35,620 bases of DNA, taken from contig CALCCB010000125.1 of the NCBI GenBank assembly GCA_937899625.1, positions 1 through 35,620 on the forward strand, in the 5' to 3' direction. The DNA comes from an uncultured Bacteroidota bacterium. Its GTDB lineage: Bacteria > Bacteroidota > Bacteroidia > Flavobacteriales_D > Crocinitomicaceae. Below the pieces are notes generated by a model that did no database searches, was not told the origin of the DNA, and saw nothing but the letters and a program-made list of their open reading frames with translations. Made by a program: the position numbers and the translations under genes. Shown here one piece after another: positions 6,975 through 15,255 of this stretch (position 1 is its first letter; every line of letters starts with the position of its first letter).

Positions 6975-8054
6975 ATGAAAGCTCACTATTCTTTTATGCT
7001 ATTGATCAGCCTTCTCACATCCTGTGGAGAAAGCACGACAAAAAGCATAGAAAAATCCGCTAAAAGTGAAAACATCGCTATTGAATTTGCGAATTGCTTT
7101 TCCATCGAAAACTCTAAAGATCATTACATTTTAACTATTCAAAATCCAGACAACAAGGATCACTTTGAATTCGCGATCGGAAAGGATTCTACTTCGAAAA
7201 ATTGTAATCTTACAATTCCGACCAATCGAATGGTACTATTGTCTGCGAGTATGATCGGAAGAGCCTCATTATTGAAAACCTATAATGAAGTTATCGGAGT
7301 TTCAGATACCGCATTTCTTTTCAACCCTACTTTGAGATCAAGAGCATCAAGTGGAAAGATCATGTCGTTTGGAGATGTAGGAAATTTCCCTATCGAAAAA
7401 CTGATCAAAAGTGATCCTGATGTAGTCATGTTCAGCGATTTCGGAAATGAGTTTCCCAAGCAAAAAGAATTGAAAAAAATGGGGGTCATCCTCATTCCTG
7501 ACCTTGACTGGCGAGAAAATCATCCGTTAGGGAAGGCCGAATGGATTCTTGTCCATGGCTTACTCACCGGAAGATTGAAGGAAGCTCAAAAGATCTTCAG
7601 CCAAATTAAGGCAGAATATCTTCAACTCACCGTTAGCAGAAAACCCTCTGAGACACTTTGCTTGAGCGGATTCCTGTATGGCGATACATGGTGGTCTCCA
7701 TCCGGAGAAAGCTACACGGCAAAACTATTTAGGGATGCTGGTATCAAGTACATTTACTCAAGAACAAAAGGCACTGGGAGCATCCCAAGAAGTATCGAGG
7801 AGATCTTATATGATTGTAAATCTGCAGATATCTGGTTCAATCCAGGATTTGATTCAAAGAAAAAATTACTCCAGATTTCAAGCAAGATAAAACACCTTGA
7901 AAGCTTCAAAAAGAATAAGGTTTTCTGCTATTCACACAACATGAATTACTTCTGGGAAATGAGTGCGATGGAACCTCAAAAAGTACTTTCCGATCTCATT
8001 TCAATAAGCAAAGGAGACACTGTAAATTTATACTTTTATAAAAAACTGAATTAA
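6975..8054 (+). CDS. ABC transporter substrate-binding lipoprotein (FecB/BtuF-like)
   Basis: The 359-residue product begins with a lipoprotein signal peptide (LLISLLTSC, lipid Cys at about 17), so it should be anchored in the periplasm. After a diverged N-terminal beta segment (about 35-75) comes the periplasmic-binding fold of the iron-siderophore/cobalamin class: NRMVLLSASMIGRASLL...VIGVSD, then IEKLIKSDPDVVMFSDF, a long rigid helix, and a second lobe (WWSPSGESYTAKLFRDAG, LYDCKSADIWFNPGF). The neighbouring FecCD permease and ATPase, two bases and one gene away, confirm the system. Siderophore-iron, heme or corrinoid are all possible substrates. No cobalamin riboswitch is seen in the 82-base gap upstream, which mostly holds the rplI terminator. 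TACCTTTA at 6959-6966 may be the -7 box. Confidence 0.85.
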   Translation: MKAHYSFMLLISLLTSCGESTTKSIEKSAKSENIAIEFANCFSIENSKDHYILTIQNPDNKDHFEFAIGKDSTSKNCNLTIPTNRMVLLSASMIGRASLLKTYNEVIGVSDTAFLFNPTLRSRASSGKIMSFGDVGNFPIEKLIKSDPDVVMFSDFGNEFPKQKELKKMGVILIPDLDWRENHPLGKAEWILVHGLLTGRLKEAQKIFSQIKAEYLQLTVSRKPSETLCLSGFLYGDTWWSPSGESYTAKLFRDAGIKYIYSRTKGTGSIPRSIEEILYDCKSADIWFNPGFDSKKKLLQISSKIKHLESFKKNKVFCYSHNMNYFWEMSAMEPQKVLSDLISISKGDTVNLYFYKKLN

Positions 8055-8056
8055 TC

Positions 8057-9049
8057 GTGTCCAGCGCCTACAAGAGAAGCCTGATCTTACTGCCTATAAC
8101 CTTAGGCGTGCTTGCGTTCACACATGTTTTGTCTGGGAAATTTGACATTACCTTTTCACAATTGATATCCAGCTTTACGAGCTTTGATCCTGATGACCTT
8201 AATCATGTGATCATTCAGGAATTCAGAGTACCAAGAACATTGACCACCATTCTGGCAGGAGCGTCCCTTTCGTTAGCAGGTATGCTCATGCAAACCCTTT
8301 TCCAAAACCCACTTGCAGGGCCTTATATCCTGGGAATCAATTCCGGCGCAGCATTTACCGTAGCACTAGGAACTCTTACCGGATTATCCTTTTTCCAGTC
8401 TGATGCAGGCATACTTGGCTCTGCTCTTATTGGGGCATTTGTTTTTGGATTGATCATTCTGATGTTCTCATTTTTTCTCCGAAATATTGTTTCCCTGCTT
8501 CTTATTGGGATCATGATCGGTAGCTTCACCTCTGCCATAACCTCTATCCTGCTTTCGATCAGCACTCCTGAGAACATGAAGATCTTCACACTATGGGGAT
8601 TAGGCTCATTACAAAAAGTAGAATCCGGTCAGATCGTTTTCATATTTATCTCATTTGTGATCGGCGTATTGCACTTGTTAACACAGCTTAAAGGAATCAA
8701 TGCACTTGTTTTGGGAGAAAACGCCGCTTCAAACCTAGGAATCAACCTTCGTAGCCTCAGAATTTCCATGATCTCCATCACGGCCCTACTTGCTGGAATG
8801 GTGACTGCTTTTTGCGGGCCGATCAGCTTTGTCGGACTCGCTATTCCCAATTTAAGTCGGATCATTTTCAAGACAGCAAATCACAGGAAGCTCACCTATG
8901 CAAATATTATTCTTGGAGCCCACTTTTTATTGATCGCTGACCTTATCACAATTTGGTTTGAGCCGATCATATTGATTCCAATTAACGCCATAACCGCCTT
9001 GATCGGAGCTCCTTTTATTATGTTAATCATCATAAAGAAATTGAAGTGA
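8057..9049 (+). CDS. ABC transporter permease, FecCD/BtuC family
   Basis: The 330-residue integral membrane protein has the FecCD pattern: FRVPRTLTTILAGASLSLAGMLMQTLFQNPLAGPYILGINSGAAF near residues 55-100, LWGLGSLQ in the middle, and GPISFVGLAIPNLSRIIF near the C-terminus. These mark the inner-membrane channel of BtuC/FhuB-type importers, usually ten helices per subunit. The start is a GTG only two bases after the upstream stop, which implies translational coupling. Its TGA stop overlaps the GTG start of the ATPase gene (GTGA). One subunit gene suggests a homodimeric channel. Confidence 0.93.
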   Translation: MSSAYKRSLILLPITLGVLAFTHVLSGKFDITFSQLISSFTSFDPDDLNHVIIQEFRVPRTLTTILAGASLSLAGMLMQTLFQNPLAGPYILGINSGAAFTVALGTLTGLSFFQSDAGILGSALIGAFVFGLIILMFSFFLRNIVSLLLIGIMIGSFTSAITSILLSISTPENMKIFTLWGLGSLQKVESGQIVFIFISFVIGVLHLLTQLKGINALVLGENAASNLGINLRSLRISMISITALLAGMVTAFCGPISFVGLAIPNLSRIIFKTANHRKLTYANIILGAHFLLIADLITIWFEPIILIPINAITALIGAPFIMLIIIKKLK

Positions 9050-9744
9050 TCGAATTAAAGAACATAGCAATTGGATATACTTCTAAATTGATAGAGGTCA
9101 ATGAAATGACACTACGACCAGGTGAGATAAAAGCACTTATCGGTGCTAATGGAAAAGGTAAAACAACACTACTTCGCACTCTCACAAATCAAATACCTGC
9201 CTTGAAAGGGACTATTTCTATTGATGATGTTCCAATAGCATTAATGGAAAGGAATAATATTTCAAGAAGAATTGCTTTTATTGGACCTGGATTCAAAGGA
9301 GTTGAAGGGTTATGTGTTTTCGAATATATTTTGCTTGGAAGGACTCCTTACCTGAATCAATTTGGAACTATTTCAGAAGATGATAAGACGATATGTCTGG
9401 AAGCTTTGCGAGTGGCCGGAATAGAAGCGTTAAAAGATCGAATAACATCTCAGTTAAGCGATGGACAACTTCAACTTGCATCAATTGCAAGAGCAATTGC
9501 GCAAAATACTCCATACATCATCATGGATGAACCCACCACCTTCCTAGATTACAGAAATAGAGAGATTATATTCAACTTATTGATCAAACTTTCAGAGGAC
9601 GGTAAGGGTATCTTATTTTCCACTCATGAGTTAGAATTTGTTTCAAAAAGAGATATTCCAGTAATTGCAATCACCAATGAAGATCAACTAATTCAATTCG
9701 ATCAGTGTCCGGGGATAGATGAGCTGGTAAATCTTTGTTTTTAG
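9046..9744 (+). CDS. ABC transporter ATP-binding protein (FepC/BtuD type)
   Basis: The 232-residue ATPase powers the upstream importer. Visible motifs are Walker A (GANGKGKTT, about residues 33-41), a C-loop reading LSDGQ instead of the usual LSGGQ, Walker B (YIIMDEPT) and the H-loop (LFSTHE). The GTG start overlaps the permease stop by four bases. It is slightly short for the family (commonly about 250), ending soon after the H-loop region. Composition shifts to visibly more A/T-rich codons than the permease gene. It is convergent with the signalling operon, only ten bases from the stop of the receiver gene, without an obvious terminator. Confidence 0.92.
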   Translation: MIELKNIAIGYTSKLIEVNEMTLRPGEIKALIGANGKGKTTLLRTLTNQIPALKGTISIDDVPIALMERNNISRRIAFIGPGFKGVEGLCVFEYILLGRTPYLNQFGTISEDDKTICLEALRVAGIEALKDRITSQLSDGQLQLASIARAIAQNTPYIIMDEPTTFLDYRNREIIFNLLIKLSEDGKGILFSTHELEFVSKRDIPVIAITNEDQLIQFDQCPGIDELVNLCF

Positions 9745-9754
9745 GCACCTAACA

Positions 9755-10204
9755 TCATAGATATAACCAGATCAATAACCCAAGAAAAGTAATTGGCAAT
9801 AAAAAGTAAAATGCTATTTTTTTCATCAATTTATATCTTGACCGTTTAATTGCATATTGCAACATAGCTTTATATCCCTGAGACTTTAATACTACCCCAT
9901 CAATTTTATACTTTGATAAATGATACGGACGATATCTCAATAAAGATTCACTTCCGGATATAAGAATAATTAATGCAAATGGCCATTTTTTTCTATAAAT
10001 CTTTATTGCGTCAACGCCAGTAATGTCTTCCAGATTATAATCAACAAACAGCACATCTGGCACCACCTCAACATGGTAGATCGACTCAGCTACAGATTCC
10101 ATTTGAATCACTTCTTTAAATCCGCCATTTTCGATGTGCCTTTTAAAGGTCTTACCAAACACAGGATCATCATCTATTATCAAAATTAAGCTTGTACCCT
10201 TCAT
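9755..10204 (-). CDS. Membrane-anchored single-domain response regulator (receiver plus C-terminal TM helix)
   Basis: The 149-residue protein is one receiver domain followed by a membrane helix. The acidic triad Asp11-13, phospho-acceptor Asp55 (VLFVDYNL), switch Ser83 (LISGS) and Lys107 (VVLKSQG) are all present, so it should accept phosphate. Instead of a DNA-binding or enzymatic output there is a very basic stretch (AIKRSRYKLMKK, about 118-129) and a 20-residue hydrophobic helix to the C-terminus (129-149). The positive charges before the helix predict that the receiver faces the cytoplasm. It is the last gene of the H-NOX/kinase operon, three bases after the kinase stop, so that kinase is the obvious phosphodonor. 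It might tether the kinase to the membrane, act as a phosphate sink, or signal to a membrane partner; none of this is shown by sequence. Confidence 0.8.
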   Translation of the reverse strand: MKGTSLILIIDDDPVFGKTFKRHIENGGFKEVIQMESVAESIYHVEVVPDVLFVDYNLEDITGVDAIKIYRKKWPFALIILISGSESLLRYRPYHLSKYKIDGVVLKSQGYKAMLQYAIKRSRYKLMKKIAFYFLLPITFLGLLIWLYL

Positions 10205-10207
10205 TAT

Positions 10208-13200
10208 TTAATTAATATCCCAGTTCTTTAATATTTCTTTCAGATCACCACAAAATTTCGAAGTCAGTTCAGGATTTAATTCTGACTTTTCCAATTCAAG
10301 AGCAGTTTTATATAACATTTCAAGATCAAACAGATCTAAGGATGGTTTTAACTGGTGAGAAAGTTTGTTTATTTTATGAGAATCATGATTTTTCAGAGAT
10401 TCCTCTATTTCTTCAACAATTCTTGAAGTACTCGAGTAAAACGTATCCTTAATCGTCTGAACAAATTCTTCATCCCCATCGCTCATCTCTATTAACCTAG
10501 AAAATGATGGTGTCTGACCTTGATTGAATGTATTATTATTTATGACATTATTCAATATTTCTCTCAATTGACGAGCAGTGAAAGGTTTACCTAAACTCCC
10601 CGTCATACCAATTTTTTTATGATGTTCAAGGTCTTTCTGAGATGTATTAGCAGATAATGCAATAACAGGAATGGATAATTTCATTTCATCTCTAATAATT
10701 TTAAAGGCAGTAACCCCATCCATTACTGGCATTTGGATATCCATTAGGATAATATTAAACCTTTCTTTTTCAAGAATGTCTAAAACCTCTTGTCCATTTT
10801 GGACAATTTCAAAATCAGCATTCATTTTCGTCAATAACGTATGGATCAGTAATTGATTCATGTCATTGTCTTCTGCAACCAATACTCTAACATTCTTAAG
10901 ATCAATTTGCTCTTCTATTAATTCAGATTCACCATTTAAAAGTTTATCATCCAGTTTTTGAAGCTCCAACTCAAAATAAAAGACCGTTCCCTTGCCAAGC
11001 TCACTTTCCAACTTTAATTCACCTCCCATGAGATCAACCAGGCTCTGGCTTATGGATAAGCCTAATCCAGACCCTCCAAAATTTCTTGAAATACTTGCGT
11101 CTTCTTGAACAAAAGTTTCGAAAATCATTTTTTGATTTTCAGGACTAATTCCTTTCCCCGAATCAAAAACTTTCAGGCATACTTTGTAAGATCTTTCATT
11201 TTCTTCATTCATTTCTACATTTATCCCTATGCTGCCTTTAGAAGTAAACTTTATTGCATTATGCGTCAAATTGAATAACACTTGGGTGATCTTCAACTGA
11301 TCAGCTTTGACAAACCTTTTTATTTTGTCATCAAAGAGGAACTTGAAATCTAGATTTTTCTCTGCTGCTTGCGGCTTAAAACTATTATACACATTGGTCA
11401 CCAGATGCCTCAGATCTACTTCAGACAAGGATATTTCCATTTTACCAGATTCTATTTTAGAAAAATCCAGGATATCATTAATTAAACTCAAAAGATTTAT
11501 TGAGGAAGCCCTGATCGCTTGAATATACAATGATTGCTCCTCATCCAGCTCGGTCTCCATTATTAGTTCTAACATACCATTCATCGCATGAAGTGGTGTT
11601 CTGATTTCATGACTCATATTTGCCATAAAAGCTTCCTTTAGACTTACAGATTGCAAAGCCTGATCTTTTGCTTGAATAAGTTCTTTTTGCAAGTTAATTC
11701 TGTCTGTAATATCAATATGTATCCCAAGCGAACCGATTACATCTCCACTATCATTAAAAATTGGGGCACCAGATATAATCATCCATTTTACATCTCCTGA
11801 CTTGCATTTAATTCTAACTTCATATACGCCAGAATCTCCTTTTGAACGTTGAGAAAGTTGCTCTTCTATAACTTCAAGATCTTCCTCAAACGCTAATATC
11901 TCTCGAGCATTCCTACCAAGCAACTCATCTTCTGTGTACCCAACTAATTTGCAGAATGCAGGATATGCTTTAATAATGGTCTCGTTTTGATCTACCTCTA
12001 TCAATCCAAAATCGAGATTTTCAATGATTCTACTGTACTTGTCTTCAACTTTACGAAGACTTTCTTTATGATTTACAATTTCCGTAACATCTTCATATCT
12101 CCAAATGAAGCCATTCATCTTACCATTTTCAATAACAGGAATAAAATCTCTTTCTAAGATCCTTCCATCTTTTAATTCCAATTTCTCGCCATATACCGGT
12201 TTTTCTGATTTAATTATTTTTTCGATGTTTGAAATGAAATCAACATTATTTTTAAAAAGATGAGCTGTATTCTTTGCAGCTTCTTTACAATCTGCACCTT
12301 CTAATTGATCAGGCCCAACCGGGATACCGAAAATATCGCAGAATAATTGATTGGCCATAATAACTTTTCGGTCATGAGATTCGGATAACACACCTACCTG
12401 CATGTTTTCCAGAATTGCAGATAAACGTGAATTTAAATTGATAAGCTCATTCTCATGTTTCAGGATATTTGATACATCTTTTAAGTAAAAATTAATGTAT
12501 TTGTTATCGGGAAAGGGCACAATAGAAATTTCATAAGTATCTCCCAGTATCTCCTTTATTTTGGTATAGGCTTTACCCTCGCTTTCAATAATATCAGACA
12601 TAAATTCCATCCAGAATAAATTAGTTTTATCTGATATTAAATTTTGAGCTGGAGGATTCCCATAAATTATCTCTCCATCAAAGTTAATTCTGACAATAGG
12701 ATTTGGACTTTCGTCGGGAAATTGAGCTAATCCAAAAATGGTTTCATTTTTTTCAATCAGTTCATCACGTTGATTTAATGTTTGCTCAAGAAGACGATTC
12801 AAATCATCGTTCACCATTTGTTGCGATTTAAGCAGCTGCAGATGATCCGTAATTGGATCATGGATCGCAAAATCTGTAATTAACAAATTGTGTAAGTTAA
12901 GGTCGATTATGTCAGTGAACCAAGGAGAATTGACATATAAAATCTCACCTCTGCTTTCAATAAAAACAAATTGTCCTCTAAAACGAGTTTTGATAGGATA
13001 ATCGCAAGATTCAAGGATCACAACCATATTCTGGTGCTCTAGAAATGATTCAAAATTCATTTCAATTGATAATCTTGGCCTAACGAATTTAAATGCTGTA
13101 TTAAAATCTTTTCCTTCAATATCTCCTATGATTTTTTTCATTGAGTCCCCAATAAACCCAATGTTTAAATTCCTGTCGATGGTCAAGCTAAAAGGAAAGA

Positions 13201-13243
13201 TCTTAGCAATCTCGAATGAATTGAAGAAAAACTTATTATGCAT
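10208..13243 (-). CDS. Hybrid sensor histidine kinase: HNOBA-coiled coil-PAS(3)-HisKA-HATPase-REC-HPt
   Basis: The 1011-residue cytoplasmic kinase has no membrane segment. Residues about 10-135 match the HNOBA domain that follows H-NOX in animal soluble guanylate cyclase (FPFSLTIDRNL, FKFVRPRLSI, FRGQFVFIES, LLITDFAIHDP). A coiled coil (about 135-170) follows, again as in the cyclase. Then come PAS-like regions at about 170-260, 270-390 and 402-515, HisKA with phospho-His545 (MSHEIRTP), HATPase with N-box (HNAIKFT), G1 (DSGKGIS) and G2 (GGSGLGL), a receiver with Asp835 (LMDIQMP), and an HPt with His963 (SHQLKP). This is a full internal phosphorelay. Its start lies one base after the stop of the H-NOX gene, so the two are translationally coupled and the H-NOX protein is the likely gas-sensing partner. 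Likely receivers are its own REC, the sigma-54 activator and the membrane receiver. Confidence 0.93.
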   Translation of the reverse strand: MHNKFFFNSFEIAKIFPFSLTIDRNLNIGFIGDSMKKIIGDIEGKDFNTAFKFVRPRLSIEMNFESFLEHQNMVVILESCDYPIKTRFRGQFVFIESRGEILYVNSPWFTDIIDLNLHNLLITDFAIHDPITDHLQLLKSQQMVNDDLNRLLEQTLNQRDELIEKNETIFGLAQFPDESPNPIVRINFDGEIIYGNPPAQNLISDKTNLFWMEFMSDIIESEGKAYTKIKEILGDTYEISIVPFPDNKYINFYLKDVSNILKHENELINLNSRLSAILENMQVGVLSESHDRKVIMANQLFCDIFGIPVGPDQLEGADCKEAAKNTAHLFKNNVDFISNIEKIIKSEKPVYGEKLELKDGRILERDFIPVIENGKMNGFIWRYEDVTEIVNHKESLRKVEDKYSRIIENLDFGLIEVDQNETIIKAYPAFCKLVGYTEDELLGRNAREILAFEEDLEVIEEQLSQRSKGDSGVYEVRIKCKSGDVKWMIISGAPIFNDSGDVIGSLGIHIDITDRINLQKELIQAKDQALQSVSLKEAFMANMSHEIRTPLHAMNGMLELIMETELDEEQSLYIQAIRASSINLLSLINDILDFSKIESGKMEISLSEVDLRHLVTNVYNSFKPQAAEKNLDFKFLFDDKIKRFVKADQLKITQVLFNLTHNAIKFTSKGSIGINVEMNEENERSYKVCLKVFDSGKGISPENQKMIFETFVQEDASISRNFGGSGLGLSISQSLVDLMGGELKLESELGKGTVFYFELELQKLDDKLLNGESELIEEQIDLKNVRVLVAEDNDMNQLLIHTLLTKMNADFEIVQNGQEVLDILEKERFNIILMDIQMPVMDGVTAFKIIRDEMKLSIPVIALSANTSQKDLEHHKKIGMTGSLGKPFTARQLREILNNVINNNTFNQGQTPSFSRLIEMSDGDEEFVQTIKDTFYSSTSRIVEEIEESLKNHDSHKINKLSHQLKPSLDLFDLEMLYKTALELEKSELNPELTSKFCGDLKEILKNWDIN

Positions 13244-13244
13244 A

Positions 13245-13790
13245 TTAACTAATCGTTAATTCAAATTGATCATGCCAAATATTGTCATTAGTTGAACTTA
13301 ACAGCTCAACTTTAATTTCCTCATTGAACATTTCAGCAAGACCCAAGCATAGCCCTTCAACAAAATGTGTTAGTCCATCACGACTTGAATAATAATGAAG
13401 AATTATATGTCCATCCCCGAGTTTTTCCACTTTAAATTCTGGCGGACTTAAATTGGGATAGATAAGCATTATTCGTCCATGAAAATTTGGAAGATTAAGG
13501 AAGAAATCTTCAAGATTACTGCCTCCAGCCTTCATCAGATCTCCATATCTCGCATAACCTACTTTTAAAATCCAGTGTTTACCGAAAGCTATTAGTACCT
13601 CCTCAGCTGGTAAGCCCAAAATTTCTGCTGCTGCCCCTACAAGGTCATAGGTAATGTCATCATCATATGCTTCATTGTTGAGAAAATACTCATACGAAAC
13701 ATTAGCTCTTTCTCTAATTTCCAACCATTTTTTAGTCCCAAAATTTTCTTCAACTAAACCTTGGATTGCCTGATTAACAACACCGTACAT
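13245..13790 (-). CDS. Heme nitric oxide/oxygen-binding (H-NOX) sensor protein
   Basis: The 181-residue stand-alone H-NOX protein binds heme b and senses NO. The N-terminus MYGVVNQAIQGLVEENFG is the family hallmark. The proximal heme ligand is His104 (LPNFHGRI), and the heme-propionate motif Y-x-S-x-R is present as Tyr133, Ser135 and Arg137 (HYYSSRDGL). By my hand alignment, the position of the distal Tyr that stabilises O2 in anaerobe H-NOX proteins is Phe143 here, as expected for an NO-selective sensor that ignores O2. The gene sits between the sigma-54 regulator (11 bases) and the HNOBA kinase (1 base). In other bacteria stand-alone H-NOX proteins modulate kinase autophosphorylation in trans; the neighbour here makes the same role very likely. 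Confidence 0.95.
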   Translation of the reverse strand: MYGVVNQAIQGLVEENFGTKKWLEIRERANVSYEYFLNNEAYDDDITYDLVGAAAEILGLPAEEVLIAFGKHWILKVGYARYGDLMKAGGSNLEDFFLNLPNFHGRIMLIYPNLSPPEFKVEKLGDGHIILHYYSSRDGLTHFVEGLCLGLAEMFNEEIKVELLSSTNDNIWHDQFELTIS

Positions 13791-13801
13791 AGATTAAAAA
13801 T

Positions 13802-15145
13802 TTAAATTTTACCTTCTTTAATCATTCTGTAAATTGTCGATTTCCCGACCTGCAGTTTGTCTGCGACTTTAAGTACGTTATTATTATATTTTCCGAGAAA
13901 AAACTTGATAATCTTATTATTGTATTCATCAAGTGTCAATTCCTGATTCATAAGGTCTTCTATATCATCTGATCTCATTAATTGAATATCTTCTTCTTCA
14001 ATAGTATTCCCATCTGCTAAAACACAAGCAACGTCGATAAGTGATTTCAATTCCCTTACATTCCCAGGATAATTATATTTCATCAATTTTTCCATGGCTT
14101 CTTTGGAAATAACTTTAACAGGCATTTTATTCTCATCGCAAAAAGATTTAATAAAAAATTTAGATAAGAGTAAAATATCCTGCTCTCTGTCCTTTAAATC
14201 AGGTAATTGAATTGTTAATCCTGCCAGTCTATAATAGAGATCTTCTCGAAAATTGCCATTCTTAACTTCTTTTAAAAGATCTCTATGTGTTGCAACTATC
14301 AAGCGTATATCTATTTCTTTAGATTTATTTGAACCTAGTCTTGTAATTTCCCTTTCCTGCAATACTCTGAGTAATTTTGATTGCATGTTTAGATCCATTT
14401 CACCTATCTCATCAAGGAAAAGAGTTCCCCCATCCGCAAGCTCAAATTTACCCTCTTTGGGTTGATCAGCTCCAGTAAACGCTCCTTTATCAAATCCAAA
14501 TAACTCACTCTCGATCAATTCTTTTGGTATGGCAGCAACATTGATCGCAACAAAAGGTTTTTTCATTCGAACGGAGTTATAATGAATTGCCTTTGCTGCT
14601 AATTCTTTTCCGGTACCAGTTGCTCCTGTAATCGAGACAGTAATGTTCGTTTTGGTCGTCTTCTCTAAAAGAGAAAATACCATTTTCATGGCTGAACTAG
14701 AACCCACCATATATTCGTTGAAACGATATTTTTCCGATACAACCTCACTCAAATTTTCCAATTCACGGTTCAATTTTGCTTTTTCAATAGCTTTATGAAC
14801 TATAAGCCAGAGAGTATCTAATGCTTTTTGATCCTTACTTAAATAATCATATGCCCCGCCTTTAAGCATTTCGACTGCAGTATCGATTTCATGTTGTCCA
14901 GATAACACAATAACCTCCGTATTTGGACAAGAGTCTTTGACTTTATGAAGTAAATCTATTCCTGAATAATCGGGTAAACCACAATCTAATGTAACTACAT
15001 CGGGATTTTCTACCAACTTTTTTATCAATTCTGCTCCAGTGGTAAATAGCTCAACTTCAAAATCAGGATCCATAGACAATTTATGTCTGATCAATTTGCC
15101 ATACAGGGGGTCATCCTCAACAATGAAAATCTTGGCCTTCTTCAT
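13802..15145 (-). CDS. Sigma-54-dependent response regulator, NtrC type
   Basis: The 447-residue regulator has three domains. The receiver (about 4-118) has Asp11, Asp12, phospho-acceptor Asp54 (VVTLDCGLPD), Ser82 and Lys104. The AAA+ domain (about 145-370) has Walker A (GATGTGKE, 174-181), the sigma-54-contacting GAFTGA loop (221-226) and Walker B (GGTLFLDEIGEM). The C-terminal Fis-type helix-turn-helix is in NNNVLKVADKLQVGKSTIYRMIKEG. Phosphorylated protein should bind upstream enhancers and activate RpoN promoters. It is the first gene of the four-gene operon; its start is 110 bases after the stop of yifB on the same strand. I found neither a clear -7 element nor a -24/-12 promoter in that gap, so autoregulation is undecided. 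Target genes are not evident in the window. Confidence 0.95.
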   Translation of the reverse strand: MKKAKIFIVEDDPLYGKLIRHKLSMDPDFEVELFTTGAELIKKLVENPDVVTLDCGLPDYSGIDLLHKVKDSCPNTEVIVLSGQHEIDTAVEMLKGGAYDYLSKDQKALDTLWLIVHKAIEKAKLNRELENLSEVVSEKYRFNEYMVGSSSAMKMVFSLLEKTTKTNITVSITGATGTGKELAAKAIHYNSVRMKKPFVAINVAAIPKELIESELFGFDKGAFTGADQPKEGKFELADGGTLFLDEIGEMDLNMQSKLLRVLQEREITRLGSNKSKEIDIRLIVATHRDLLKEVKNGNFREDLYYRLAGLTIQLPDLKDREQDILLLSKFFIKSFCDENKMPVKVISKEAMEKLMKYNYPGNVRELKSLIDVACVLADGNTIEEEDIQLMRSDDIEDLMNQELTLDEYNNKIIKFFLGKYNNNVLKVADKLQVGKSTIYRMIKEGKI

Positions 15146-15255
15146 TCTTCCAATTTTTGAAAATATTTTCCCAAATTAGGAATTTATACGTGTGATTGAA
15201 CATTGGAGTTGATATTTTATCCCAAAATAACTTTCTAATGATTAAAAGTGAACTC

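Follow-up and report, generated by a model that had tools for sequence, protein, structure and literature searches.

The locus described here raises the question of whether a four-gene operon from an uncultured Bacteroidota bacterium (Crocinitomicaceae) encodes a gas-sensing phosphorelay, whose sensor would correspond to the regulatory half of the soluble guanylate cyclase (sGC) beta subunit split over two genes. Having analysed a stretch of 35,620 nucleotides, hereafter the window, we somewhat favour this proposal as a whole, with a probability of roughly 0.58.

Domain organization of the operon

A reading-frame check confirmed four open reading frames, all on the minus strand. The first-pass annotation was thus right in taking the four genes as real and in placing the H-NOX stop and the kinase start one base apart (position 13244). 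The small receiver begins 3 bases past the kinase end. The features are as follows:

15168..15182, no strand assigned: TTCCTAATTTGGGAA, a TTCC-N7-GGAA palindrome 22 bases upstream of the regulator ATG, putatively bound by the regulator
13802..15145, minus: sigma-54 response regulator, 447 aa, REC(D54)-AAA(GAFTGA)-HTH(GKSTIYRM)
13245..13790, minus: H-NOX protein, sGC-type clade, starting MYG, 181 aa, His104 and Y133-x-S135-x-R137
10208..13243, minus: hybrid histidine kinase, 1011 aa, HNOBA-coil-PAS-PAS-HisKA(H545)-HATPase-REC(D835)-Hpt(H963)
12764..13210, minus: PAS-like HNOBA domain at kinase residues 12-160 (Pfam, PDB matches, predicted model)
12725..12853, minus: coiled coil ending HNOBA, residues 131-173, one helix in the predicted model
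10553..10885, minus: receiver domain within the kinase, residues 787-897 (Pfam)
10229..10447, minus: Hpt domain of the kinase, residues 933-1005, 23.4 bits (under the Pfam cut-off of 24.6), HQLKPS motif
9755..10204, minus: stand-alone receiver, 149 aa, REC by Pfam, with D12, D13, D55, S83 and K107 kept
9758..9826, minus: hydrophobic segment at the C-terminus of the small receiver (residues 127-149; hydropathy), also present in loci L196, L198, L200 and L203

Pfam analysis identified HNOB in the product of 13245-13790 (E 4.9e-46; 157.1 bits versus a cut-off of 25.5), and the protein keeps the proximal His104 as well as Y133, S135 and R137, in agreement with the haem ligand and YxSxR motif noticed earlier. 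H104 is conserved in all 95 distinct H-NOX proteins that are paired with HNOBA, Y133 in 94, S135 in 92 (T in 3) and R137 in 94. The best PDB match is the Nostoc H-NOX Alr2278; Manduca beta1 matches with an E value of 6e-32, and the human sGC beta1 fragment 5mnw scores 1.6e-30 against the window protein as compared to 2.8e-5 against an H-NOX of the other clade. Assignment of the window H-NOX to the sGC type is supported by sequence comparison.

HNOBA was detected at the kinase N-terminus (E 6.1e-19; 68.8 bits versus a cut-off of 23.4), the match falling into two stretches, the best at residues 12-79 and the second at residues 87-160 (12764-12985). Further Pfam matches comprise a weaker PAS (residues 278-393), the best PAS (402-515), HisKA (536-600) and HATPase (648-762); no class III cyclase domain was found past the coil, where the kinase domains lie instead. 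The predicted model of residues 1-178 has a pLDDT of 89.2, and a Foldseek search of a PDB library (350,542 chains) returned sGC alpha or beta chains as all of its top 16 matches (E 4e-11 to 4e-8; TM over the query 0.58-0.69), aligned across about the whole model. Because these whole-length alignments have a large rmsd (6-15 Å), the coil is predicted to run in a direction different from that in sGC. The HNOBA of the Nostoc kinase (2p08_A) gives a TM of 0.86 over the target and an rmsd of 1.6-2.2 Å over the Nostoc domain. The initial equation of the kinase N-terminus with the HNOBA and coiled coil of sGC beta is borne out by both the Pfam profile and the predicted fold, and at this level both elements are genuine.

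In sGC beta, an H-NOX of the same clade is followed by HNOBA and coil in the order seen here; fused into one chain, the window pair would align to human beta1 1-281 (6jt0_B), the joint being 17 residues shorter. However, sGC beta is one chain with a cyclase, whereas the window has two genes and a PAS-HisKA-HATPase-REC-Hpt kinase instead. The operon indeed adds, as had been proposed, a sigma-54 regulator (REC plus AAA with GAFTGA) and a receiver with a hydrophobic tail (Pfam, hydropathy), and the acceptor Asp is kept at each of the three suggested phospho-receivers, i.e. kinase D835, regulator D54 and small receiver D55. Neither a GGDEF, EAL or HD-GYP domain nor a FIST gene was found by Pfam among the window's four genes.

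Co-inheritance of H-NOX and HNOBA

In a class survey, an HNOBA kinase came next after H-NOX in 30 of 32 cases when the latter was of the MYG type, in 0 of 34 cases for the MKG type, which forms the other main clade, and in 1 of 9 for others; re-checking of the partners without an HNOBA call revealed no hidden HNOBA in the plain kinases. A named scan returned 79 of 80 loci with this gene order, these being the best 80 of 448 by similarity to the window H-NOX and hence favouring its clade; four of them are identical to class-survey loci. Lutibacter and Persicitalea strains are represented in the named set. The four-gene arrangement had been thought unusual, but its frame recurs in L196, L198, L200 and L203, and the H-NOX-HNOBA kinase pair, far from being rare, is the norm for H-NOX of this clade across the examined loci. 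A tally of 104 of 395 genomes was not taken as the number of HNOBA proteins, since many of the matches span only profile positions 165-216, that is the coiled coil.

Mirror-tree analysis of 83 pairs (16 of the 99 HNOBA pairs were left out, 12 for a short core match and 4 as duplicates) yielded r values of 0.714 for H-NOX/HNOBA and 0.322 for H-NOX/kinase core, and partial r values of 0.676 versus 0.088, respectively, a signal that may also reflect joint transfer of adjacent DNA. The view that H-NOX and HNOBA behave as one evolutionary unit is supported by these sequence data, and co-inheritance together with the mirror tree lends indirect support to a possible docking of H-NOX on HNOBA. The earlier suggestion that the arrangement could reveal how animal NO signalling arose is not supported by these data.

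Sensor exchange and probable output of the relay

The same regulator is found with either H-NOX clade or with a FIST (NosP-like) protein, the latter confirmed by Pfam in relatives, where it occupies the operon position of H-NOX. Against the NCBIfam NosP model, the FIST protein of L195 reached 60.5 of 450 bits, far under the cut-off. A regulator tree of 64 rows contains 7 changes for MYG, 6 for MKG and 2 for FIST, at least 5, 3 and 2 of which are forced, when loci with a regulator not directly beside H-NOX are counted as MYG; setting these apart gives an inflated 11 changes, at least 7 of them forced.

The regulator displays the NtrC-type traits, namely REC, AAA with GAFTGA and HTH, and the genome holds one sigma-54 gene. 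In NCBIfam, the best model is ntrC and the second PEP_resp_reg (TIGR02915; 380.2 bits versus a cut-off of 502.6), both remaining below their cut-offs; the window regulator resembles the sigma-54 regulators of exopolysaccharide loci, but is linked to NO-sensor genes. TTCC-N7-GGAA precedes 12 of 29 regulator genes, including that of the window, whereas the same palindrome with other spacers from 2 to 12 precedes 0 or 1 of 29 each. It also occurs past the kinase in 7 of 29 cases as compared to 1 of 99 for kinases without an adjoining regulator. We relied on the spacer test; a weight matrix built by hand on 22 gaps proved too weak alone, with shuffle values between 0.003 and 0.99. Genome-wide, the strict sigma-54 consensus TGGCRC-N5-TTGCW had no match, nor did its control, and the palindrome combined with TTGGYAY was no commoner than the reversed control (4 versus 4). 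A -24/-12-like promoter with an upstream site is seen in some relatives and as candidates only in this genome; the pattern was derived from the same gaps in which it was counted, so that only its background rate is informative. Of its 34 matches in the loci read, 11 are intergenic (two of which, in L295 and L317, are one site), and most single matches are therefore due to chance. Regulator targets in this genome are weak candidates, with three putative sites.

Of the 15 regulator-linked H-NOX loci, 6 have Poly_export genes within the stretch retrieved, as compared to 0 of 60 others (Fisher 2.5e-5); in 6 of the 15, a receiver leads into polysaccharide-export genes, in one case by fusion. A Poly_export gene is preceded by a receiver in L064, L075, L105, L106, L114 and L203, and in L090 the two are fused, while in L196, L198 and L200 a small receiver follows the kinase directly, without export genes. 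The window's operon likewise has no export genes next to it. Similarity of the window receiver to the export-linked receivers is low (20-28% in short alignments), and a hydrophobic tail is predicted in some, not all, of the latter. The single Poly_export match in the genome (L144) was rejected as a target, as it belongs to an ordinary cluster with glycosyltransferase, Wzc and sugar genes, in which no such site was seen on reading. The relay joined to the H-NOX/HNOBA sensor probably controls the outer matrix of the cell.

As to the sensor, the operon might represent an ordinary H-NOX/kinase two-component system in which H-NOX touches the catalytic core or the later PAS, HNOBA being only a dimerising PAS. 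MKG-type H-NOX is paired, within the same operon frame, with kinases lacking HNOBA; an H-NOX/kinase pair as such therefore has no need of HNOBA. Conversely, five genomes of the class encode HNOBA kinases but have no HNOB match (G013, G023, G064, G314, G369), which argues against a strict requirement for H-NOX; two HNOBA kinases from these genomes adjoin the sigma-54 regulator (L117 and L122, from the six stretches L117-L122 taken for HNOBA without H-NOX, which enter no H-NOX count). However, H-NOX clade and partner type go together, and H-NOX divergence tracks HNOBA and hardly the kinase core, and we regard this explanation as unlikely. Quite improbable is that H-NOX responds not to NO but to O2 or redox state. 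O2-binding H-NOX proteins carry a Tyr near the aligned position of Phe143, and the sGC-type clade has Phe143 where alignment to Alr2278 puts Met. Moreover, FIST proteins, which are described as haem NO sensors (PMC12570481), occupy the slot in relatives, alongside H-NOX or instead of it, although a haem-free, redox-responsive H-NOX is described for Vibrio (PMC7108781).

On the output side, it is somewhat unlikely that the tail-anchored receiver, unconnected with export, merely damps the relay as a phosphate sink. It has no output domain, and in the window, L196, L198 and L200 it is encoded directly after the kinase, away from export genes; yet a membrane anchor would be superfluous for a sink, and in the six export-linked loci and the fusion in L090 a receiver is associated with Poly_export. 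Likewise quite improbable in our view is a transporter as output in place of the matrix, i.e. the convergent FecCD-type ABC system at 6975-9744, with uptake of haem, corrinoids or siderophores adjusted to NO. H-NOX requires haem, the convergent Peripla_BP_2, FecCD and ABC genes adjoin the small receiver in the window, and convergent genes of similar size are found there in L196, L198 and L200 (Pfam was run on the binding protein of L198 only). But these four loci form one regulator-tree clade with full support, so the shared neighbourhood may be plain inheritance, and as the genes converge, operon and transporter have no promoter in common.

Proposed route from NO to the matrix

In the phosphorelay that we favour, NO would bind to the H-NOX haem and H-NOX would dock on HNOBA at the kinase N-terminus, and the resulting change may pass through the coiled coil to HisKA, as it does from H-NOX to the cyclase in sGC. 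Phosphate would travel from His545 via Asp835 and Hpt His963 to regulator Asp54 and to Asp55 of the tail-anchored receiver. By analogy to known H-NOX pairs and to the NosP pair of PMC12570481, NO is more likely to inhibit the kinase than to activate it. The regulator would bind TTCC-N7-GGAA, with one site before its own gene, and may activate sigma-54 promoters of extracellular-matrix genes, i.e. those for polysaccharide export in several relatives and, in this genome, those for candidate secreted surface proteins, while the membrane receiver could target the export machinery or serve as a further membrane output. More tentatively, and at somewhat less than even odds, Bacteroidota may possess one hybrid kinase-to-sigma-54 regulator phosphorelay with an exchangeable NO-sensor slot, filled by the H-NOX plus HNOBA unit, the other H-NOX, FIST or sometimes H-NOX plus FIST. 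In that case, the membrane receiver would carry the NO signal straight to the exporter and the regulator would work via TTCC-N7-GGAA enhancers, the pair being a two-gene sGC beta regulatory half.

Similar arrangements are known. The Nostoc HNOBA kinase gene presumably adjoins an H-NOX gene as well, and the structure of this Nostoc punctiforme kinase, a PDB match of the window HNOBA, is already solved (2p04, 2p08). In Shewanella and Vibrio, H-NOX is probably of the other clade. According to PMC8738867, their networks resemble the window in having an H-NOX gene that adjoins a kinase gene as well as several response regulators, one of which (HnoC) is a transcription regulator with feedback; in contrast, the relay here ends in a sigma-54 activator and its kinase is HNOBA-linked. 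NosP operons also place a haem NO-sensor gene beside a kinase gene (PMC12570481), but the sensor fold differs. Sigma-54 control of the bacterial exterior has been proposed (PMC3162934). The parts themselves are known, but we found no description of H-NOX/HNOBA wired to a phosphate relay in the literature. New are the occurrence of one regulator with either H-NOX clade or FIST, the receiver-to-export link and TTCC-N7-GGAA at regulator genes.

How NO binding is transferred from H-NOX through HNOBA/PAS to the effector in sGC has long been debated. Among the loci read, 95 distinct pairs have the chain cut at the H-NOX/HNOBA joint, which allows the two halves to be assayed separately for binding, affinity and co-variation. 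If the more tentative reading is true, the operon would provide the regulatory half of sGC beta in a free-standing, two-gene form, and with it a way of studying the NO-to-effector interface apart from the cyclase. For Bacteroidota, it would offer a concrete, testable route from NO to the matrix, which need not involve c-di-GMP and has a defined candidate DNA site.

The operon and its likeness to soluble guanylate cyclase

All four genes lie where the first-pass annotation had placed them, and domain searches together with a check of key residues confirmed its reading of their domains. The operon and the palindrome ahead of it comprise:

15168-15182, palindrome TTCCTAATTTGGGAA, just ahead of the regulator gene
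13802-15145, minus strand, sigma-54 regulator with Asp54, GAFTGA and the recognition helix GKSTIYRM
13245-13790, minus strand, H-NOX protein of 181 aa
10208-13243, minus strand, kinase with HNOBA (residues 12-160), PAS domains, HisKA (His545), HATPase, REC (Asp835) and Hpt (His963)
9755-10204, minus strand, small receiver with D12, D13, D55, S83 and K107 kept and a hydrophobic segment at its C-terminal end

The heme ligand His104 and the YxSxR motif (Y133-x-S135-x-R137) ascribed to H-NOX were both found, and the three proposed phospho-receivers as well as the Hpt domain are present and look competent from their residues. The Hpt domain has the HQLKPS motif and scores slightly below the Pfam cut-off. 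The genome holds one sigma-54 gene. A convergent Peripla_BP_2/FecCD/ABC uptake operon (6975-9744; candidate substrates haem, corrinoid or siderophore) adjoins the small receiver, and convergent genes of similar size occupy this position in the related loci L196, L198 and L200. The genome also encodes a second sGC-type H-NOX (L063, G000:C83, 4303-8506), accompanied by a separate HNOBA kinase of 1075 aa and a small receiver; no sigma-54 regulator directly adjoins this set.

The kinase N-terminus had been equated with the HNOBA and coiled-coil segment of sGC, and both sequence matches and the predicted fold bear this out. The likeness of H-NOX and kinase N-terminus to sGC is real. The human sGC beta1 fragment 5mnw matched the window's H-NOX with an E value of 1.6e-30, as compared to 2.8e-5 for the H-NOX of L105, which belongs to the other (MKG) clade and stands in an operon of the same kind. 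The first 175 residues of the kinase were matched by sGC beta1 and alpha1 (E 1.5e-8 to 1.3e-7) and by the Nostoc punctiforme kinase domain 2p08/2p04 (E 2e-6). When a predicted structure of residues 1-178 (built from 74 sequences, pLDDT 89.2) was compared with the PDB using Foldseek, the top 16 matches were all sGC chains (TM over query 0.58-0.69), with the Nostoc domain (rmsd 1.6-2.2 A) and the Manduca PAS domain coming next; the rmsd of 6-15 A for the sGC chains indicates that the coil lies differently in the model. Human beta1 (6jt0_B) aligns at 1-180 with H-NOX residues 1-177 and at 210-281 with kinase residues 9-80, so that the two proteins joined end to end would have a joint 17 residues shorter than that of beta1.

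Pairing of H-NOX clades with HNOBA kinases

HNOB was found in 72 of 395 genomes of the class Bacteroidia, and the 80 stretches fetched contained 75 H-NOX reading frames, one of them being that of the window. H-NOX proteins of the sGC-type clade, which begin with MYG, are followed by an HNOBA kinase in 30 of 32 cases (no kinase seen in two), whereas those of the MKG clade never are (0/34; plain kinase in 32, none in two). Among nine H-NOX proteins beginning otherwise, one has an HNOBA kinase next and eight have none. No HNOBA is hidden in those plain kinases that have 150 or more residues ahead of the core (hhalign probability 3.1%, E 0.09 for the best single match). The same partner follows in 79 of the 80 loci that are most similar to the window's H-NOX among 448 relatives, some of the HNOBA parts being in pieces because of contig ends or frame breaks; in the one exception, the H-NOX gene is the last on the fetched stretch. 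Going by record titles, Verrucomicrobia account for four of these 80 and an 'uncultured bacterium' for one, and the rest carry Bacteroidota names. A median of 3 bases separates the H-NOX and kinase genes, and in 75 of 95 distinct pairs the distance is between -10 and +20.

The rule is weaker in reverse, since an N-terminal HNOBA part without any HNOB match occurs in five genomes of the class (G013, G023, G064, G314, G369). HNOBA counts by profile alone are inflated because many matches span only positions 165-216, that is the coiled coil (e.g. G000:C163:38583-38732). The kinases from genomes lacking HNOB lie at L117-L122 (G314, G064 twice, G023, G369, G013), and those at L117 and L122 neighbour the sigma-54 regulator.

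Docking of H-NOX on HNOBA predicts that their evolutionary distances correlate. Indeed, for 83 of 99 pairs (12 left out for a short core match and four as duplicates), H-NOX distances correlate with HNOBA distances (r 0.714) more than with distances between the catalytic cores of those kinases (r 0.322; bootstrapped difference 0.39, 0.30-0.50), with partial correlations of 0.676 and 0.088, respectively. Joint transfer of the adjacent DNA would produce part of this signal as well. We read the contrast between HNOBA and core as the kinase core probably having been swapped behind a conserved H-NOX/HNOBA sensor pair.

A possibly exchangeable sensor on a sigma-54 relay

A sigma-54 regulator lies upstream of H-NOX in 15 of the 75 class-survey loci (within 200 bases) and in 17 of the 80 most similar of 448 (within 650 bases). 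The window's regulator shares 44-56% identity with 16 class-survey relatives, and 51 of 149 class genomes contain a match to it at E <= 1e-100. Twenty stretches from this search in which no H-NOX was found were read: several carry hybrid kinases for which two membrane segments are predicted, several a stand-alone Hpt-like protein, and in some no recognised partner adjoins the regulator. In two of the twenty, L194 and L195, a FIST (NosP-like) protein, assigned by Pfam, lies between regulator and kinase. In nine of the 80 similar loci (L209, L211, L214, L215, L222, L224, L227, L231, L260), a FIST gene immediately precedes H-NOX and the regulator is also within the locus; Pfam confirmed FIST in all three of these tested and in L270. 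These nine loci, with the HNOBA kinase next, place two different NO-sensor families side by side. L233 likewise has FIST ahead of H-NOX, with no regulator seen.

Sensor labels are interleaved in a tree of 64 regulators, with seven changes for MYG, six for MKG and two for FIST, of which at least five, three and two, respectively, are forced by well-supported branches; a single, fully supported clade unites the window with L196, L198 and L200. We propose that the sensor position on this relay may be exchangeable between MYG H-NOX, MKG H-NOX and FIST. PMC12570481 describes FIST proteins as haem-based sensors of NO, which favours NO as the probable signal of the window's system too.

Of 29 H-NOX-linked regulators, 12 have the palindrome TTCC-N7-GGAA upstream (other spacers of 2-12: 0 or 1 each; Fisher 1.5e-12 against background). 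The corresponding counts are 5 for 35 other regulators and 32 (other spacers 6-13) for 1560 background frames, some of which lie over the same sites. The palindrome is also found downstream of the kinase in 7 of 29 cases (other spacers 0 or 1) and of 1 of 99 kinases lacking an adjoining regulator. Because it stands just ahead of the regulator gene in the window, and a similar one does so in L196, the palindrome suggests a putative site through which the regulator may control its own gene. Regulator-linked loci also show, between the kinase and the gene that follows, a TGGYAY-N5-T(K)G-like element about 40-60 bases ahead of the next start codon; in part of these gaps the palindrome lies above it. 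With expressions drawn from these same gaps, the element was found in 9 of 15 gaps listed (looser) and in 5 of 12 versus 21 of 2111 background starts (stricter).

Palindrome plus TTGGYAY has four matches in the window's genome, a count that alone shows nothing because the reversed control also gives four; over ten genomes the counts are 40 and, for the control, 16. The genes ahead of which the three intergenic matches stand are only candidate targets:

1. a 352-aa protein, then a protein with four FKBP domains
2. a 173-aa protein, then a 1180-aa protein with a type IX secretion tail
3. an Ig-like-domain protein, broken off at the contig end

Export genes and the proposed signalling route

In six of the 15 regulator-linked class-survey loci (L064, L075, L090, L105, L106, L114), the kinase is followed by genes for a receiver, a Poly_export/SLBB-like and a Wzc/Wzz-like protein (Pfam names assigned for L064 and L090). 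With the same query or with a six-sequence profile, Poly_export was absent from all 60 H-NOX loci without regulator (Fisher 2.5e-5), a contrast that may be somewhat too sharp because the query came from a regulator-linked locus and contig ends cut many stretches. One of these 60, L076, has a Wzc-like match. In L090 (3411-4595, minus strand), receiver, membrane segment and Poly_export/SLBB exporter form one fused protein. Within the similar set, L203 repeats the gene order of the six, L197 encodes a Wzz/GNVR protein besides a sugar transferase, and L199 gives a weak Wzc-like match; in L202 and L270, the H-NOX gene is oriented divergently to regulator, kinase, receiver, Poly_export and Wzc. The window, L196, L198 and L200 keep a tail-anchored receiver directly after the kinase, with no export genes following it there. 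Outside Bacteroidota, polysaccharide-export genes lie directly upstream of the H-NOX/HNOBA-kinase pair of L204, a Verrucomicrobiales MAG.

An HNOBA kinase from Nostoc has already been solved (PDB entries), reportedly by Ma et al. 2008 (cited in PMC2828450), and we take it to stand beside an H-NOX gene; Iyer et al. 2003 is likewise said to be prior work. In the literature searched, outside which most subscription papers fell, we found no description of the H-NOX clade/HNOBA partnership, of a sigma-54 relay with an exchangeable sensor position or of the receiver/export link. The H-NOX networks of Shewanella and Vibrio are known to comprise several response regulators (PMC8738867), sigma-54 control of the bacterial exterior has been proposed (PMC3162934), HNOBA is mentioned (PMC1592074) and Bacteroidetes are stated to have NO receptors (PMC9510103).

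Domain order, key residues, predicted fold, partner rule and palindrome are direct results of the analysis. Taken together, we infer a route in which NO, the presumed ligand, would act on H-NOX and, through putative docking, on HNOBA and the coil, and from there, with whichever sign, on HisKA of the kinase. Phosphate would then pass from HisKA via REC to Hpt and on to the sigma-54 regulator and the membrane receiver, which may in turn control matrix genes and export.
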